26,143 nucleotides of DNA from a virus (IMGVR_UViG_3300024520_000435:1-26143), one strand, 5' to 3'; positions 20,087-25,417 are shown, counted from the stretch's first letter. Made by a program: numbers and translations. Notes: generated by a model from the letters alone, not told the origin.

Positions 20087-20425
20087 ATGAAAAAGGCACT
20101 CATCCAAGGGACCAGAATCTGCGAGATCGTAGAAGATGGCGCGGAATTCGAAGTCCATTCATCGCTGGAATGGGTCGATGTCGCTGACAACACGACGACC
20201 GCCGACACCTGGGTTGATGACGCGGTTGTTGCGTTTACAGTGTCGGCAAAAACAATGTCAGATTTACGGGTGCAGAGAGACGCCCTGCTTGTCCAATCGG
20301 ATTGGACACAGGTTGCCGATGCACCGGGCGACACGGCGGCGTGGGCTACATATCGCCAGACGCTGCGTGATCTGCCAGCCAATACGGCTGATCCTGATAA
20401 CCCAACATGGCCGACGCAACCATGA
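20087..20425 (+). CDS. Tail fibre assembly chaperone-like protein
   Basis: This 112-residue protein starts at the base after the fibre stop. The C-terminal half has the well-known pattern of phage tail-fibre assembly chaperones: LRVQRDALLVQSDWTQVADA, then WATYRQTLRDLP and a final NPTWPTQP. Related proteins help fibres fold or trimerise and are usually encoded directly downstream, as here. The N-terminal half (residues 1-45) is a small beta-rich region matched to the individual fibre. Its stop overlaps the next ATG (ATGA at 20422-20425). Confidence 0.85.
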   Translation: MKKALIQGTRICEIVEDGAEFEVHSSLEWVDVADNTTTADTWVDDAVVAFTVSAKTMSDLRVQRDALLVQSDWTQVADAPGDTAAWATYRQTLRDLPANTADPDNPTWPTQP

Positions 20426-20586
20426 ACGACCACGTCAAATCCGTATTTGATATATCTTCGTTTGCTGTCGTTGGTGCGACTTTAGTGGAATGGCTCCCAG
20501 CCGTCGCAGCCCTGCTTAGTATTGTATGGTCACTAATCCGCCTGTGGGAGACGGCGACGGTGAAGAGATGGTTCAAAAGACACTAG
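20422..20586 (+). CDS. Small membrane protein, holin candidate
   Basis: This 54-residue ORF begins MNDHVKSVFDISSFAVVGAT and has a hydrophobic span, EWLPAVAALLSIVWSLIRLW (residues 23-42). It ends with the basic tail TVKRWFKRH. The layout (short polar N-terminus, WLP..AA..SIVW..IR.WET motif, basic C-terminus) resembles small phage proteins annotated as class II/III holins in marine phages. A holin lets endolysin cross the inner membrane. The start overlaps the chaperone stop, and the end overlaps the next gene by 19 bases. Four kilobases and several other small membrane proteins separate it from the endolysin, so which one is the true holin is open. Confidence 0.65.
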   Translation: MNDHVKSVFDISSFAVVGATLVEWLPAVAALLSIVWSLIRLWETATVKRWFKRH

Positions 20587-21212
20587 GCATAGCCGTAGCA
20601 GTGGCTCTGCTATGTGTTTTGATCCCCGCCCATGCGACTGACACCGTCACAACGAACACTACGGTTGGAAATACGGTGAGCACCTCGTCAAATACCGTGT
20701 CATCCAGTTCCAACACGGTGTCGAGTAGTTCCAACACGGTGTCGTCCAACACCACGGGAACCAACTCCACCAACAGCACAGTTATCGACAAGGCAACGAC
20801 TGCGGCCACTGCCAGCAGCCCATCGGTGATTGTCAATAATTCTGATGTTTGTGTGACGGGAGTTTCAGGTGCCGTGCAAACATCTCTGTTTGGTGTGTCT
20901 GGTGGGGGCACTGTCAGGGACAAAAACTGCGAAATCCTGAAGCTCAGTCGCACCTTGTATGGTGCCGGGCTGAAAGTGGCGGCGGTATCTCTCCTGTGTC
21001 AGGACGCCCGCGTGTTCGATGCCATGATGTCGGCGGGAACGCCGTGCCCGTATGAGGGTAAGATTGGAACACAAGCCAGAGTTAGTTGGATTGGAAATCC
21101 GAATGAAGCGCCAGACGGGACCAAGCTGCGGCGGGATGCCCGCAGGAAGGCGGAAGCTGTCGAAGAAACCCACCAGGAAACCCTCGACAATCCTGACGGG
21201 TATCCAGGATGA
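20568..21212 (+). CDS. Exported protein with Ser/Asn/Thr repeats, unknown function
   Basis: This 214-residue protein has a clear signal peptide (KTLGIAVAVALLCVLIPAHA, likely cleaved after A23). A linker of three SSSNTVS-type heptapeptides follows, then a conserved-looking domain with paired cysteines: DVCVTGVSGAVQTSLFGVSG, then RDKNCEILKLSRTLYGAGLK, SLLCQDARVFDAMMSAGTPC and PYEGKIG. The four cysteines suggest disulphides in the periplasm. I recall similar domains in marine phage genomes, always of unknown function. I choose ATG 20568, which gives the signal peptide at the true N-terminus; an upstream ATG at 20526 would put 14 polar residues before it. The stop overlaps the start of the next exported protein (ATGA). 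Confidence 0.75.
   Translation: MVQKTLGIAVAVALLCVLIPAHATDTVTTNTTVGNTVSTSSNTVSSSSNTVSSSSNTVSSNTTGTNSTNSTVIDKATTAATASSPSVIVNNSDVCVTGVSGAVQTSLFGVSGGGTVRDKNCEILKLSRTLYGAGLKVAAVSLLCQDARVFDAMMSAGTPCPYEGKIGTQARVSWIGNPNEAPDGTKLRRDARRKAEAVEETHQETLDNPDGYPG
20679..20741 (+). repeat. Three tandem 21-bp units in the exported protein gene
   Basis: The units code STSSNTV, SSSSNTV and SSSSNTV. An 18-base stretch is identical at 20706-20723 and 20727-20744, a 21-base period. The result is a flexible hydroxyl-rich linker after the signal peptide. Confidence 0.8.
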
Positions 21213-22654
21213 AGGCAATTCCCCTCCTGATCCTGACCTGTTTGTTCTGCCCCCCGGCTTCTGCTGTTGAGCTCACAACCGACAACCTTGTGCCGGGGAT
21301 AGCTGAGTTTACGGCATCGGGCGGCACGTCATTCGGCACCGGTTCCGGGTGCAGTAGTGGGGCGTATTGTACGTCCGGCACCAACGAGGGTGGCGGCACC
21401 TACACGTCCAACTTCGATGTGCCTCTGACCGAGGCTGAAGTGCGATTAGGATTTACCCTGAATTCAGCGATCACGATCAGCAGTCATTCGAGCAATGCCC
21501 AGCTTTCCACTTGCTCTAACGGCGTCCTGCAATCCGGCGACTGCCGGGATATATTCCGACTCACGGTAACGCTTCAGGATGCTGGAACGGCGGTTGAGAC
21601 CTTTGTGCATCAGGAGGAAATGGACTTTGCGGGTCTTCAGGATTTCACTTTCACGGATGTCGTCGCGGCCAATAATTATGGTGTGCTGACAGGTATATAC
21701 GAACTGTTTGGGATCGATGCCGGGTTCCCGGTAGGGTTCTACGGGCCACAGTTTAGCAGCCCCAGCTTGACAATTGATTATCAGACCGCGTTTGTTCAGG
21801 AAGAGGTGGACGCTACTATTTCCACTCAGATCGAGACCCAGACGCAGGAAGTCGTGCAAGCGTCTGTGGCTCCTATTGCGCCGCCGGTAGCCCCGCCGCC
21901 ACTGGTGGAGCCTATCGCCGCCCTCGCGACATTTGATATTGTCACCACATCAGCCCCGCCGCCAGATGTGCCGCCTGTTGTGGTGGTGGATATCCCTGTT
22001 GCTACAGAGACTTTGGCCCCTGTCAGTTCGCCCTCTGCCGCTGCCCCGGCACCTCCCGAAGCGCCAACGGCCCCCGTGATCGAGCCGATAGCAACAGTTT
22101 CTGAAACGCAGCAAACGCAAGAATCGCAAGCGGAAGCCCAGATTGAAGCGGCGGTAGAAGCCCCGGCCCCTGAACCCGTCGCGGAAGCCCCGGCCCCCGA
22201 GCCTGAAGTTGCCGAAGCGGCAGTTGAACCTGAACCCACCGAAGCAGAACCCGAAGCCGAGGCCGCTGAAGAACCAGCACCGAAAGCGGCGAGCAAATCA
22301 ACAGCGCGACGGAAGGTAGTAGTAGCGACCACGGCATTGCCGAAGGTTTCCGTGGCGACGGTTTCGGTCCCGGTTACCCCGGCGATAGCTGCACAGGCCG
22401 TGGTAGACGCCATCGCCCCATCCCAGAAATATGGCTCTGCCGCCCAGACAGTGACGCTGATTGCAATGGGAGTAATCGCGCAGAACCGGGGGCTGTTTAA
22501 GGGTCCGGGTATCCCTGATGCGGCGACCGGGTTTTTCTCGACATCTACCATTCCAGACGGCCCGTCGATGATCGACCGAATGACGAATTACCGCTTCAGC
22601 GGGCAAGCTAACGGCGTCCATAATGAACTGATCGAAAGCCAGTGGAACAGGTAA
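21209..22654 (+). CDS. Exported protein with TonB-like Pro/Glu/Ala linker
   Basis: This 481-residue protein has three parts. A signal peptide (MKAIPLLILTCLFCPPASA, cleavage after A19) comes first. A globular beta-rich domain follows (about 20-200), with cysteine pairs, a GFTLNSAITISSHSSNAQL stretch, CRDIFRLTVTLQDAG and GIDAGFPVGFYGPQFSSPSL. A long linker (about 205-390) is packed with Pro, Ala, Val and Glu (for example APAPEPVAEAPAPEPEVAEA), like the periplasm-spanning part of TonB. The C-terminal part (about 390-481) is helical and ends IDRMTNYRFSGQANGVHNEL. I do not recognise a named family. Its start overlaps the upstream exported gene, and the next gene, a membrane-anchored coiled coil, begins immediately after its stop, so the three probably act together at the envelope. 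That is inference. Confidence 0.75.
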   Translation: MKAIPLLILTCLFCPPASAVELTTDNLVPGIAEFTASGGTSFGTGSGCSSGAYCTSGTNEGGGTYTSNFDVPLTEAEVRLGFTLNSAITISSHSSNAQLSTCSNGVLQSGDCRDIFRLTVTLQDAGTAVETFVHQEEMDFAGLQDFTFTDVVAANNYGVLTGIYELFGIDAGFPVGFYGPQFSSPSLTIDYQTAFVQEEVDATISTQIETQTQEVVQASVAPIAPPVAPPPLVEPIAALATFDIVTTSAPPPDVPPVVVVDIPVATETLAPVSSPSAAAPAPPEAPTAPVIEPIATVSETQQTQESQAEAQIEAAVEAPAPEPVAEAPAPEPEVAEAAVEPEPTEAEPEAEAAEEPAPKAASKSTARRKVVVATTALPKVSVATVSVPVTPAIAAQAVVDAIAPSQKYGSAAQTVTLIAMGVIAQNRGLFKGPGIPDAATGFFSTSTIPDGPSMIDRMTNYRFSGQANGVHNELIESQWNR

Positions 22655-23251
22655 ATGGCAGAGGTCGAATATAAAGGAATAAAAATAGGCGGGAGCAAGC
22701 TGCTGTTGCTCTTACCATTAATCGGGACATTGGGCTCCATCGCATGGGGCGGCATGGAAGCGTACACGCGTTGGCAAAAGATGGAAGCAAAGATTGAGGG
22801 TTTCGTGTCGCCTGATCTGAGCGGCTTCGACAAGCGGCTGGCAGTGCAGAGCAAGACGGTGGATGAGATCAGGAAAGAGATGAAGTCGGTGCGTCTTCGT
22901 GTCGCTGAAATCCAGCAGCTGACACGCGGCCTGCACGATGACGTCAGGGGCGATCTCGCGAAAACGTACAAGCAGATCAGTGGAGTGGATCGCCGGTCCA
23001 GATCGGCAGACGCAGACACGCGGGCGGCGATGAGACAGGCAGAGAAACTCATACGTTCCATCATAGCGAGTTCTTCTGACAGACTAGACGCCAAGGTGAA
23101 TAGTGCCGCCAGTACGTTCGACGCCAAGACAAGCAGCGCCGTGACACGGTTCGACGCCAAGATCAACGGCATCGAGGCTCGACTAAATACACACACACAG
23201 AAATTAGACCGCCGCCTAAGAGATGCCCTCAACAATCCGTTGCTCAAATGA
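22655..23251 (+). CDS. Membrane-anchored coiled-coil protein
   Basis: This 198-residue protein starts MAEVEYKGIKIGG, followed by one hydrophobic segment (SKLLLLLPLIGTLGSIAWGG, about residues 14-33). The remainder is a long charged helix with coiled-coil character. Near the end, three eleven-residue units beginning LDAK or FDAK (residues 144-177) give a hendecad pattern, typical of right-handed coiled coils. Short basic-start membrane proteins with the EYKGIKIGGSK opening recur in marine phage genomes, without a known role. It follows the exported-protein gene with no gap, and its stop overlaps the next start. Possible roles are an envelope tether, a spanin-like element or a superinfection factor. 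Confidence 0.7.
   Translation: MAEVEYKGIKIGGSKLLLLLPLIGTLGSIAWGGMEAYTRWQKMEAKIEGFVSPDLSGFDKRLAVQSKTVDEIRKEMKSVRLRVAEIQQLTRGLHDDVRGDLAKTYKQISGVDRRSRSADADTRAAMRQAEKLIRSIIASSSDRLDAKVNSAASTFDAKTSSAVTRFDAKINGIEARLNTHTQKLDRRLRDALNNPLLK
23084..23185 (+). repeat. 33-bp period hendecad repeat
   Basis: Three units of eleven codons begin at 23084, 23117 and 23150, coding LDAKVNSAAST, FDAKTSSAVTR and FDAKINGIEAR. The 12 bases coding FDAK are identical in units 2 and 3, which suggests duplication within the coiled coil. Confidence 0.75.
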
Positions 23252-23422: not shown

Positions 23423-23737
23423 ATGGCACAGAAAAAGCTAGAGGCCGACTCCACATTAGCTAACGAGCTTGATCTCGACGGCGACGGCATTGTCAGTGAT
23501 GTCGAGCTGGCGGCGTCTGAAGCCTTGGCGAGACATGAGAAAGCGGATGCCCAGCGTCAGATGGCCTGGGTGGCAATGGGGTCGATGTTGTTCTTCACCG
23601 TCGCCGTGTTTCTGCCCATTTTCCCGGATGCTCGGATCAAAGCTCTGGCTGACCTCTTTGGCCTGTTTTACATAGGACAGGCGGGCGTTGTCGGAGCGTA
23701 TATGGGAATGACCGCCTACATGACGAAGAAGAAGTGA
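23423..23737 (+). CDS. Two-TM small protein with EF-hand loop, holin-like
   Basis: This 104-residue protein has an N-terminal perfect EF-hand loop: D17, D19, D21, G22, V24 and E28 occupy the canonical positions in DLDGDGIVSDVE. Two hydrophobic segments follow (about 47-67, WVAMGSMLFFTVAVFLPIF; and about 76-97), and a basic end TKKK. This resembles small membrane proteins of marine phages annotated as putative holins. Calcium binding would be unusual for a holin and is predicted only from the loop. I choose ATG 23423 with GGAAG in front; an in-frame upstream ATG at 23387 lies inside the preceding gene. Its stop overlaps the next start (TGATG). Confidence 0.7.
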   Translation: MAQKKLEADSTLANELDLDGDGIVSDVELAASEALARHEKADAQRQMAWVAMGSMLFFTVAVFLPIFPDARIKALADLFGLFYIGQAGVVGAYMGMTAYMTKKK

Positions 23738-24050: not shown

Positions 24051-24440
24051 GTGCTGAAAATCTACCTCCTGATCATAGTCCTTGGCCTTGTGGGCGGCGT
24101 AGGATATGGCGGGTGGTATTATTACAAGGACACGCAGGAGCGGATTCGCATTCTGACCGAGAACTCGGCCAAGCTGGAAATGGCAAAGAAGGTGCAGGAT
24201 CAGACGATTGACACGCTTAAGGCAGACGCAAATAAGTACCGCAAGCTCAACAAGAGTCTGTCGCTGAATTTACAGAAATCGCATGACTACAAGAACAAGC
24301 TGATTGGCAAACTAAGACGCCATGATTTAAGTCGCCTTTCTCAGTCTAAACCCAAACTCGTGGAGGGAAAGATTAATCGTGGGACTAAGCTTTTATTCCA
24401 GGGCTTTGAGTCTGACACTGCTCTGCCTGTTACTAAGTAG
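24051..24440 (+). CDS. i-spanin (Rz-like inner membrane spanin subunit)
   Basis: Spanins join inner and outer membranes at the end of lysis. This 129-residue protein has the i-spanin build: an N-terminal membrane anchor (residues 3-24, IYLLIIVLGLVGGVGYGGWY) and a long periplasmic coiled coil (about 27-90). A terminal region follows with HDLSRLSQSKPKLVEGKINR, a common ending in phage Rz-type proteins. It starts at GTG 24051 immediately after the upstream TAG. The start of the lipoprotein gene lies within its last 62 bases in another frame, the usual Rz/Rz1 overlap. Confidence 0.85.
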   Translation: MLKIYLLIIVLGLVGGVGYGGWYYYKDTQERIRILTENSAKLEMAKKVQDQTIDTLKADANKYRKLNKSLSLNLQKSHDYKNKLIGKLRRHDLSRLSQSKPKLVEGKINRGTKLLFQGFESDTALPVTK

Positions 24441-24771
24441 TTGCAGTTCGTGGCCCAAGCTTAGACAGATCGAGGTCAAGACCGTACAGGTGGATCGTGT
24501 GATCCCGATACAGGCGCGACCTCAACCGGTGAAGCTGCATGATATTACCTGGTTCGTGGTCACTGACCAGAACTTCAAGGAGTTCAAGAAGAGGTACACG
24601 AAGCTGACGGGGACGTTTTTATTTTATGCCATATCGGTCCGGGATTATGAGGCACTCGCGTTGAATCTCGCCTCTATCCGCCGCTACATCTTGGCGCAAA
24701 AGGCGCTGATCTCGTACTATGAGGACGCTGCGCGTCCCCGGCCTAAGAATAAGAAAGAGGTGAAGAAATGA
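24379..24771 (+). CDS. o-spanin-like outer membrane lipoprotein
   Basis: This 130-residue ORF begins at GTG 24379 with GGAGGGA upstream, inside the end of the i-spanin gene. Its signal sequence ends in a lipobox (LSSC, with C22 as the lipidated residue and Ser at +2, consistent with outer membrane targeting). The mature part starts with a short polar/Pro segment (VIPIQARPQPVKL), then a folded-looking region (ITWFVVTDQNFKEFKKRYTK, FYAISVRDYEALALNLASIR). Classical Rz1 proteins are much shorter and Pro-rich, so this is an extended version, a type I recall from marine phages. Its stop overlaps the endolysin start. The spanin role is inferred from lipobox, overlap and neighbour. Confidence 0.78.
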   Translation: MGLSFYSRALSLTLLCLLLSSCSSWPKLRQIEVKTVQVDRVIPIQARPQPVKLHDITWFVVTDQNFKEFKKRYTKLTGTFLFYAISVRDYEALALNLASIRRYILAQKALISYYEDAARPRPKNKKEVKK

Positions 24772-25211
24772 TTGAGCAATTACGCAGAGAGCTTGAGGCT
24801 GATGAAGGTTCCGGGGGCGGGAGGATTTATGAAGATCATCTCGGCTTAAAGACATGTGGCGTGGGACATTTGATTAGACCTGATGACCCCGAATATGATC
24901 AGCCTGTCGGAACCCCGATTTCAGAAGAACGTGTCGCGGAATTGTTTGCCAAGGATATCGGCTGGACCATCACCGATTGCTACAAGCTGTTACCTGGTTT
25001 CGGTGACCTGGAAGAAGAGCTCCAACTCGTAATCTGCAACATGACCTATAATATGGGACTGAATCGAATGGGAAAATTCGTCCTCTTCCTCGCTGCCGTC
25101 GAGGCCGGCGATATGAACGAGGCCGCAAACCAGATGTACGATTCCAAGTGGGCGAGGCAGCTTCCCGAAAGGAGCGGGCGCCTAATTGCGAGAGTACGGG
25201 CGCTGGCATAA
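24768..25211 (+). CDS. Endolysin, T4-type lysozyme (GH24 muramidase)
   Basis: It cleaves the sugar backbone of peptidoglycan. The 147-residue length is close to T4 lysozyme (164). The catalytic triad is visible: E13 (in ADEGS), D23 (YEDHLG) and T29 (KTCGVGHL), matching T4 E11, D20 and T26. The DEG to GHL spacing is one residue longer than in T4, in a Gly-rich stretch. A second recognisable part is LQLVICNMTYNMGLNRMGKF and then QMYDSKWARQLPERSGRL. The N-terminus is not hydrophobic, so it is a soluble cytoplasmic endolysin that needs a holin. The start overlaps the lipoprotein stop (ATGA). It is the last gene of the rightward block. Confidence 0.92.
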   Translation: MIEQLRRELEADEGSGGGRIYEDHLGLKTCGVGHLIRPDDPEYDQPVGTPISEERVAELFAKDIGWTITDCYKLLPGFGDLEEELQLVICNMTYNMGLNRMGKFVLFLAAVEAGDMNEAANQMYDSKWARQLPERSGRLIARVRALA

Positions 25212-25255: not shown

Positions 25256-25417
25256 TCACCAACGACCATAACTTATCTCGGATGGGATGAATATGCATTC
25301 ATTCGACCTCCATGTCTTATCCGGGAGATAGGTCACCTGCCCGCATCCCACCGCCAGTTCTGCGAAGACGATAGAGATGAGAATTCCAATTGTCACGATG
25401 ATGATGAATTTAATCAT
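25256..25417 (-). CDS. Small exported or membrane-anchored protein
   Basis: This 53-residue leftward ORF starts at 25417 inside the stop of the LexA-like gene (ATGA overlap) and ends in two tandem stops. Residues 1-19 are a hydrophobic signal or anchor (MIKFIIIVTIGILISIVFA). The rest is short and polar, with two cysteines (C25, C41), LPDKTW and CIFIPSEISYGRW. A G-rich ribosome site precedes the start. I do not recognise it; superinfection exclusion or envelope modification would fit so small an exported phage protein but there is no direct evidence. It is the last gene before the leftward terminator. Confidence 0.6.
   Translation of the reverse strand: MIKFIIIVTIGILISIVFAELAVGCGQVTYLPDKTWRSNECIFIPSEISYGRW

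Follow-up and report, generated by a model that had tools for sequence, protein, structure and literature searches.

A conserved three-gene module of exported and membrane-anchored proteins in unrelated aquatic phages, a candidate trans-envelope complex

Three adjacent phage genes, here called A, B, and C, form one module whose order is kept in unrelated phages. They were studied in a virus record of 26,143 bases with a T7-like phage gene set (IMGVR_UViG_3300024520_000435:1-26143; "the window" denotes this whole stretch), where they occupy positions 20568-23251 in one tight plus-strand run. As an earlier note on this DNA had described, all three are intact open reading frames (ORFs), translationally coupled and gapless between B and C: the stop of A and the start of B share ATGA (21209-21212), the TAA of B (22652-22654) abuts the ATG of C (22655), and the end of C shares a further ATGA with the start of the next ORF (23248-23251). 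The signal peptides of A and B and the single transmembrane (TM) segment of C, which that note had also reported, were read from sequence and hydropathy, as were all such calls below. With a probability of roughly 0.4, we interpret the products as a complex that would span the periplasm of a Gram-negative host and act late alongside the lysis genes, helping to set the time of envelope breakdown or to complete it.

Results

Linkage and breadth of the module

Loci were gathered with A, B, and C queries separately, plus an alignment of A and a set of named phages, and linkage was counted at those A loci whose downstream sequence reached 4.2 kb or more, after removal of close copies (n=78). A C-type gene was taken to be a TM gene with NPL or NPM within its last 14 residues. 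Such a gene lies downstream of A in 76 of the 78 non-redundant loci, and in the other two the ending is NPI, in a collection that is biased to A proteins resembling the query and in which the redundancy filter may leave related contigs from one environment. As a control, TM-like antisense ORFs were screened for this ending, which 5 of 956 carry. In at least 68 of the 78 loci, A is succeeded by a B-type protein or another exported one, and among the remaining loci are some where B starts beyond the distance cut-off (e.g., L121) and some where B is replaced (CRP-810). Loci collected from C gave the same picture, with A upstream in all 12 usable cases and B in 11. Independent occurrence of the three genes in relatives, which the earlier note had named as the outcome that would speak against a module, was thus not what we found.

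Carriers include the Pelagibacter phages HTVC115P, HTVC023P, HTVC033P, HTVC202P, Baldr, and the T4-like Mosig, and further a Votkovvirus (Autographiviridae), the Roseobacter phages CRP-207 and CRP-810, and genomes from Manatee Spring. The module therefore spans T7-like, HMO-2011-type, siphovirus-like, and T4-like phages from marine and freshwater environments, HTVC033P having been placed in the HMO-2011-type group (PMC9038755) and the tail genes of HTVC202P being of siphovirus type; it is present on viral contigs of 200-352 kb as well. The same trio in phages of such differing architecture is unlikely to stem from common descent of the entire region. A search with the A alignment returned at least 589 confirmed stretches, indicating a family far larger than the one sampled here. 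A cellular origin was considered and rejected: a genome collection gave nine contigs, from metagenome bins or single cells, and the one inspected individually (L135) has many genes that belong to the phage clusters of the viral loci. The trio is not described in the open-access full-text literature that we searched.

Purifying selection acts on all three genes, with ratios of nonsynonymous to synonymous substitution rates (dN/dS) of ~0.12 for A and ~0.11 for B against locus L018 and 0.19 for C against L047, synonymous sites being unsaturated in these comparisons. Distances among A and among B proteins diverge in step (Mantel r 0.55-0.69, values to which common phage ancestry contributes). CRP-207 and CRP-810 retain A and C around a middle protein that is an unrelated exported helical protein, and this persistence of A and C where B is replaced points to an A-C core.

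Gene A: an exported protein with a constant four-cysteine domain

The start of A was set at ATG 20568, within a mechanical ORF that opens at 20526; this start yields the signal peptide MVQKTLGIAVAVALLCVLIPAHA followed by TD. The description of A and B as cysteine-rich proved overstated, each mature protein having four cysteines, and the underlying observation holds in that all eight are 88-100% conserved in their families; those of A reach 98-100% (176 sequences), in a family of more than 170 ORFs among the collected loci. AlphaFold, run on shallow alignments (21 and 32 sequences), predicts for A a confident helical domain at about residues 121-205 (predicted local distance difference test, pLDDT, ~84-97 from residue 121) preceded by disorder.

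No relative of A was found in the PDB by fold or by sequence search, and no Pfam family matched even at E up to 1. Among viral proteins, the significant fold matches were mostly unnamed, one coming from the Votkovvirus whose genome also has an A gene. Through its conserved Cys domain, the window protein distantly matches phrog_20531, a family of unknown function (E 5e-13), as do the A proteins of Mosig (4e-13) and HTVC115P (4.5e-12). Gene 25 of Achromobacter phage JWAlpha, a member of this family, resembles A in its signal peptide, low-complexity stretch, and related four-cysteine domain and differs in lying in the JWAlpha early region, where B or C cannot be recognised, so the A domain also occurs outside the module. 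Moreover, small lipoproteins (71-86 amino acids, aa) are encoded directly 5' of A in CRP-207, CRP-810, and ct7L0027, and those of the two roseophages share the cysteine core of A, which indicates that the domain type exists in a lipid-anchored form as well.

The Asn/Ser/Thr (N/S/T) repeats of A vary greatly: they are nearly gone in many members and dominate the 375-512-aa A proteins of the 200-352 kb contigs. In three of these contigs, A has hundreds of repeat residues of the NNNNVNSGTMTY type (L186 4269-5396, L195 3867-5405, and L190 4089-5396), and its reading frame shares ~65 bases with that of B. Such repeats could be taken to suggest a surface fibre or secretion module serving adhesion or aggregation. 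HTVC023P-type pelagiphages and myophages do carry curli (type VIII secretion) genes that have moved between viral families (PMC9599517), and these resemble A-B-C as an exported multi-gene envelope cassette common to unrelated marine phage families. The proteins are different, however, and the range of A-B-C includes very large phage contigs and a roseophage group. The module has no CsgG-like pore, and the Cys domain stays constant where the repeats are nearly lost, which makes a role of this kind extremely unlikely. Identity with curli was rejected, as no CsgG or CsgF homologue was noticed by the module and the repeats are not constant.

Gene B: a predicted beta-sandwich, a long linker, and a shared C-terminal domain

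The Pro/Ala/Glu linker that the earlier note had pointed out in B is present and slightly longer than the ~180 residues given there. It ranges from 114 to 290 aa in relatives and has mostly low pLDDT. Its likeness to TonB holds at the level of architecture, both proteins having a long Pro-rich linker of periplasm-spanning length. The order of parts is reversed, however: TonB is anchored N-terminally, whereas B begins with a cleavable-type signal and ends in a different C-terminal domain of its own. B as a TonB was rejected on this order and on the lack of a Pfam match.

Foldseek matched the predicted N-terminal sandwich of B to the sugar-recognising domain of Fbs1 (E 3e-6) and to a family-16 carbohydrate-binding module (2zew, E 1.9e-4), among matches at 10-17% identity whose list also holds ephrin-receptor and birnavirus capsid domains, the same fold being known in domains that do not bind sugar. 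One relative of B gave a weak Pfam match to CBM_4_9, below cut-off. The model thus supports a galactose-binding-like jelly-roll, a glycan-binding type of fold, with sugar binding putative. No relative of solved structure was found by sequence, no Pfam family scored above cut-off for B, and its C-terminal domain is unrelated to any Pfam family. That domain is homologous to the C-termini of the proteins at the B position in large phages (profile-profile probability 97%), so the B position is truly common to both. The N-terminal part was missed by its own profile in many loci that keep A, C, and often the C-terminal domain of B; in three large-phage loci (L160, L178, and L196) it looks different by eye and has no Pfam family. 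Separately, B proteins of L179 (1800-3887), L216 (5425-7077), and L160 (5563-7608) have, after the N-terminal domain and ahead of the linker, a Cys-bearing repeat of ~19 residues (CPGYAQAYLNQQC...).

These features might suit receptor control, in which the glycan-binding domain of B, shown via A and C, would mask or soak up the phage's own receptor, so that superinfection is blocked or progeny are kept off debris after lysis. Llp of phage T5 is an analogue. The sugar-binding type of fold, the frequent failure to recognise the N-terminal part while A and C stay (as would befit a part adapted to the glycans of each host), and the position after the fibre genes in the window all agree with this reading. 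On the other hand, A-B-C has no outer-membrane exporter or lipobox, leaving surface exposure before lysis unexplained; masking needs no inner-membrane rod such as C, and other phages place the module beside terminase or nucleotide genes. We consider receptor control unlikely, if worth keeping in view.

Gene C: an anchored helix with a fixed tip

C has a single hydrophobic segment at about residues 15-32, followed by a sequence with a 3.6-residue hydrophobic periodicity that was reached by 3 of 1000 shuffles. Its NPL end (C-terminus ALNNPLLK) is retained throughout relatives of 74 to 224 aa, as expected of a docking tip. Pfam searches at E up to 1 gave weak sub-threshold matches (including XhlA, E 0.55) and no T-type holin. 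By profile comparison, the TM segment of C resembles that of the same phages' i-spanins over 28 columns. An iterated hidden Markov model (HMM) of C recruited i-spanins; the likeness being one of TM segments, we do not claim a common origin.

Neighbouring genes and comparison with lysis systems

The window also encodes a head-tail adaptor, a protease, the major head protein, tail tube proteins, and internal virion proteins. A tail fibre and a fibre-assembly-type protein lie 5' of the module, and on the 3' side C is followed by a 57-aa coil, an EF-hand-like protein with two TM segments, small TM proteins, an i-spanin, an o-spanin, and an endolysin (Table 1). The placement between fibre and lysis genes proposed in the earlier note is therefore correct for the window and does not generalise: the module adjoins terminase in HTVC202P and Baldr, and in Mosig it stands beside a gene transfer agent (GTA)-type holin with three TM segments and nucleotide-metabolism genes, away from tail genes. 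Elsewhere, a holin-like relative adjoins the module in Manatee Spring ctXG6705, and a lysozyme lies 5' of it in HTVC033P. The position 3' of fibre genes in the window might suggest that one or more of the proteins are virion components, which we judge very unlikely, since the Sec-type signals of A and B and the TM segment of C would take the proteins out of the cytoplasm, the site of virion assembly, and since tail genes are distant in Mosig, HTVC202P, and Baldr.

Table 1 Features of the A-B-C module and its surroundings (window positions unless a locus is named)
Feature	Position	Strand	Description and basis
Gene A, exported protein, 214 aa	20568..21212	+	Signal peptide, N/S/T-rich stretch, helical four-Cys domain
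A conserved domain, ~residues 95-185	20850..21122	+	Cysteines 95, 121, 144, 160; alignment
Gene B, exported protein, 481 aa	21209..22654	+	Signal peptide, N-terminal beta-sandwich (predicted), linker, C-terminal domain
B N-terminal domain, residues 20-193 (~174)	21266..21787	+	Cysteines 48, 54, 102, 112; AlphaFold
B linker, 200 aa	21788..22387	+	21.5% Ala, 17.5% Pro, 14.5% Val, 13% Glu
B C-terminal domain, residues 394-481	22388..22651	+	HMM; profile-profile match to large-phage B termini
Gene C, 198 aa	22655..23251	+	One N-terminal TM segment and long helix, predicted periplasmic
C PDLSGFDKR motif, just past TM segment	22811..22837	+	C family alignment; kept in large-phage C proteins
C NPL motif, residues 194-196	23234..23242	+	C-terminal sequence
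One-TM protein, 59 aa, holin-like	20407..20586	+	Overlaps A start; ORF and sequence
EF-hand-like motif and two-TM protein	23423..23737	+	phrog_27150 (unknown function); homologues in 59 loci and roseophage CRP-207
i-spanin (Rz-like)	24051..24440	+	phrog_739, E 5e-12
o-spanin lipoprotein (Rz1-like)	24379..24771	+	phrog_812, E 8e-13; lipobox; overlaps i-spanin
Lysozyme-type endolysin	24768..25211	+	phrog_7 endolysin, E 1e-12
Lipoproteins 5' of A	L129 1725-1940; L130 7561-7821; L131 886-1101		

Several neighbours deserve comment. The 59-aa protein upstream of A is called holin-like from its size and position; it has no PHROG family and a sub-threshold Pfam match. The EF-hand-like motif of the two-TM protein reads DLDGDGIVSDVEL, and its gene is kept beside C in many of the 59 loci; it is possibly a calcium-sensing holin. 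Tail-lysozyme families match the lysozyme-type protein nearly as well as the endolysin family does, and it was assigned to lysis because it follows the spanin pair. Finally, a short antisense ORF (25256-25417, minus strand) whose N-terminus resembles a lipobox lies 3' of the endolysin gene and has homologues in six loci.

C resembles the i-spanin of two-component spanins (lambda Rz/Rz1) in layout, with an N-in TM segment and a periplasmic helical rod, and likewise has a partner translated beside it in a module that is often near lysis genes; B, in contrast to spanins, adds a beta-sandwich and a 200-aa linker. A lipobox scan of A, B, and C found none, their signals (in A and B) being of the signal peptidase I type, and the lipobox ORFs of the window are the separate o-spanin and the antisense ORF. 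PHROG and Pfam scans assigned none of the three to a spanin family, and the neighbours at 24051 and 24379 do match. A-B-C as a two-component spanin was rejected, there being no lipobox and the window having its own i-/o-spanin pair and endolysin, so the earlier view that spanins and endolysin leave these genes unexplained stands, with no Pfam match above cut-off. A simple lipobox scan of the complete genomes of HTVC202P, Baldr, and the Votkovvirus MedDCM-S28 (L217-L219) found no credible o-spanin; a general replacement of spanins by the module in pelagiphages was nevertheless rejected, since the window has both.

A further comparison is with lysis timing in T4, where the holin T is bound by RI, a periplasmic protein whose signal peptide is cleavable (PMC8385771). 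C, like T, combines one TM segment with a large periplasmic domain, and A, like RI, is a signal-peptide-bearing periplasmic helical protein with cysteines. By analogy, C could be a one-TM holin or holin partner, A an antiholin-like periplasmic sensor, and B a reporter of events in the outer envelope, and the holin or holin-like genes beside the module in Mosig and ctXG6705 would be in keeping with such a gate. Unlike the T4 pair, however, A-B-C has no match to the T or RI families of Pfam (E up to 1), includes a third protein, and has other holin types nearby, so that C is not needed as a holin; moreover, C is a long helical rod. A lysis gate of this type seems to us quite unlikely, if still a live alternative.

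Discussion

Starting from the observed order, linkage, signals, cysteines, and tip, and from the predicted fold of B, we infer a possible assembly together with its locations, ligands, timing, and outcome. The TM helix of C would anchor it in the inner membrane, with the helical rod projecting outward, and the NPL tip of C would dock on the disulfide-held helical domain of A. The C-terminal domain of B would attach B to A and C, and its beta-sandwich, carried on a long stiff linker, might bind a glycan of the envelope, either peptidoglycan or lipopolysaccharide. The three proteins would most likely be produced late, together with those of the lysis genes. Their complex could connect the inner membrane with the wall or the outer membrane and contribute to the timing or completion of envelope breakdown alongside the ordinary holin, endolysin, and spanins. 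All three products should be exported yet, for want of an outer-membrane exporter or lipobox, should stay in the periplasm until lysis. Given the lysis-type neighbours, including the GTA-type holin of Mosig, our best guess is that the module acts late, in envelope breakdown or in timing it.

Several observations weigh against this periplasm-spanning complex. A recognised lysis-type neighbour is present in only 29 of 63 non-redundant loci, and terminase is the neighbour in HTVC202P and Baldr. The window already has a spanin pair, and no lysis step is obviously short of a protein. The likeness between C and i-spanins is confined to the TM segment. The divergence of C does not keep pace with that of A (Mantel r 0.21), and in L047 (6001-6597) C has been exchanged alone, being 95% identical to the window C where A is 55% and B 49% identical, a pattern that reads as recombination within the module. 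That C can be swapped alone fits recognition through short fixed motifs, not a broad interface.

More broadly, the module may represent a new class of phage trans-envelope machine, in which a C rod would grip an A hub via a universal NPL tip and carry a changeable glycan-binding B arm, in podo-, sipho-, and myophages and very large phages of aquatic environments; we put this at somewhat short of an even chance. The case for novelty rests on the comparisons with known systems, which placed A-B-C in none of them, and on its absence from the searched literature, the likeness to spanins and to RI/T being one of topology. Neither Pfam, PHROGs, the PDB, nor the searched papers offer an explanation of A or C.

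The carriers include cultured phages of the most abundant bacteria of the ocean (Pelagibacter) and of Roseobacter, along with the 200-352 kb contigs. The conserved NPL tip and the cysteines of A provide precise points for mutation, for which existing phage-host pairs are suited. Because the trio is kept across differing virions, it should meet a frequent envelope need of phages that infect small aquatic Gram-negative bacteria.

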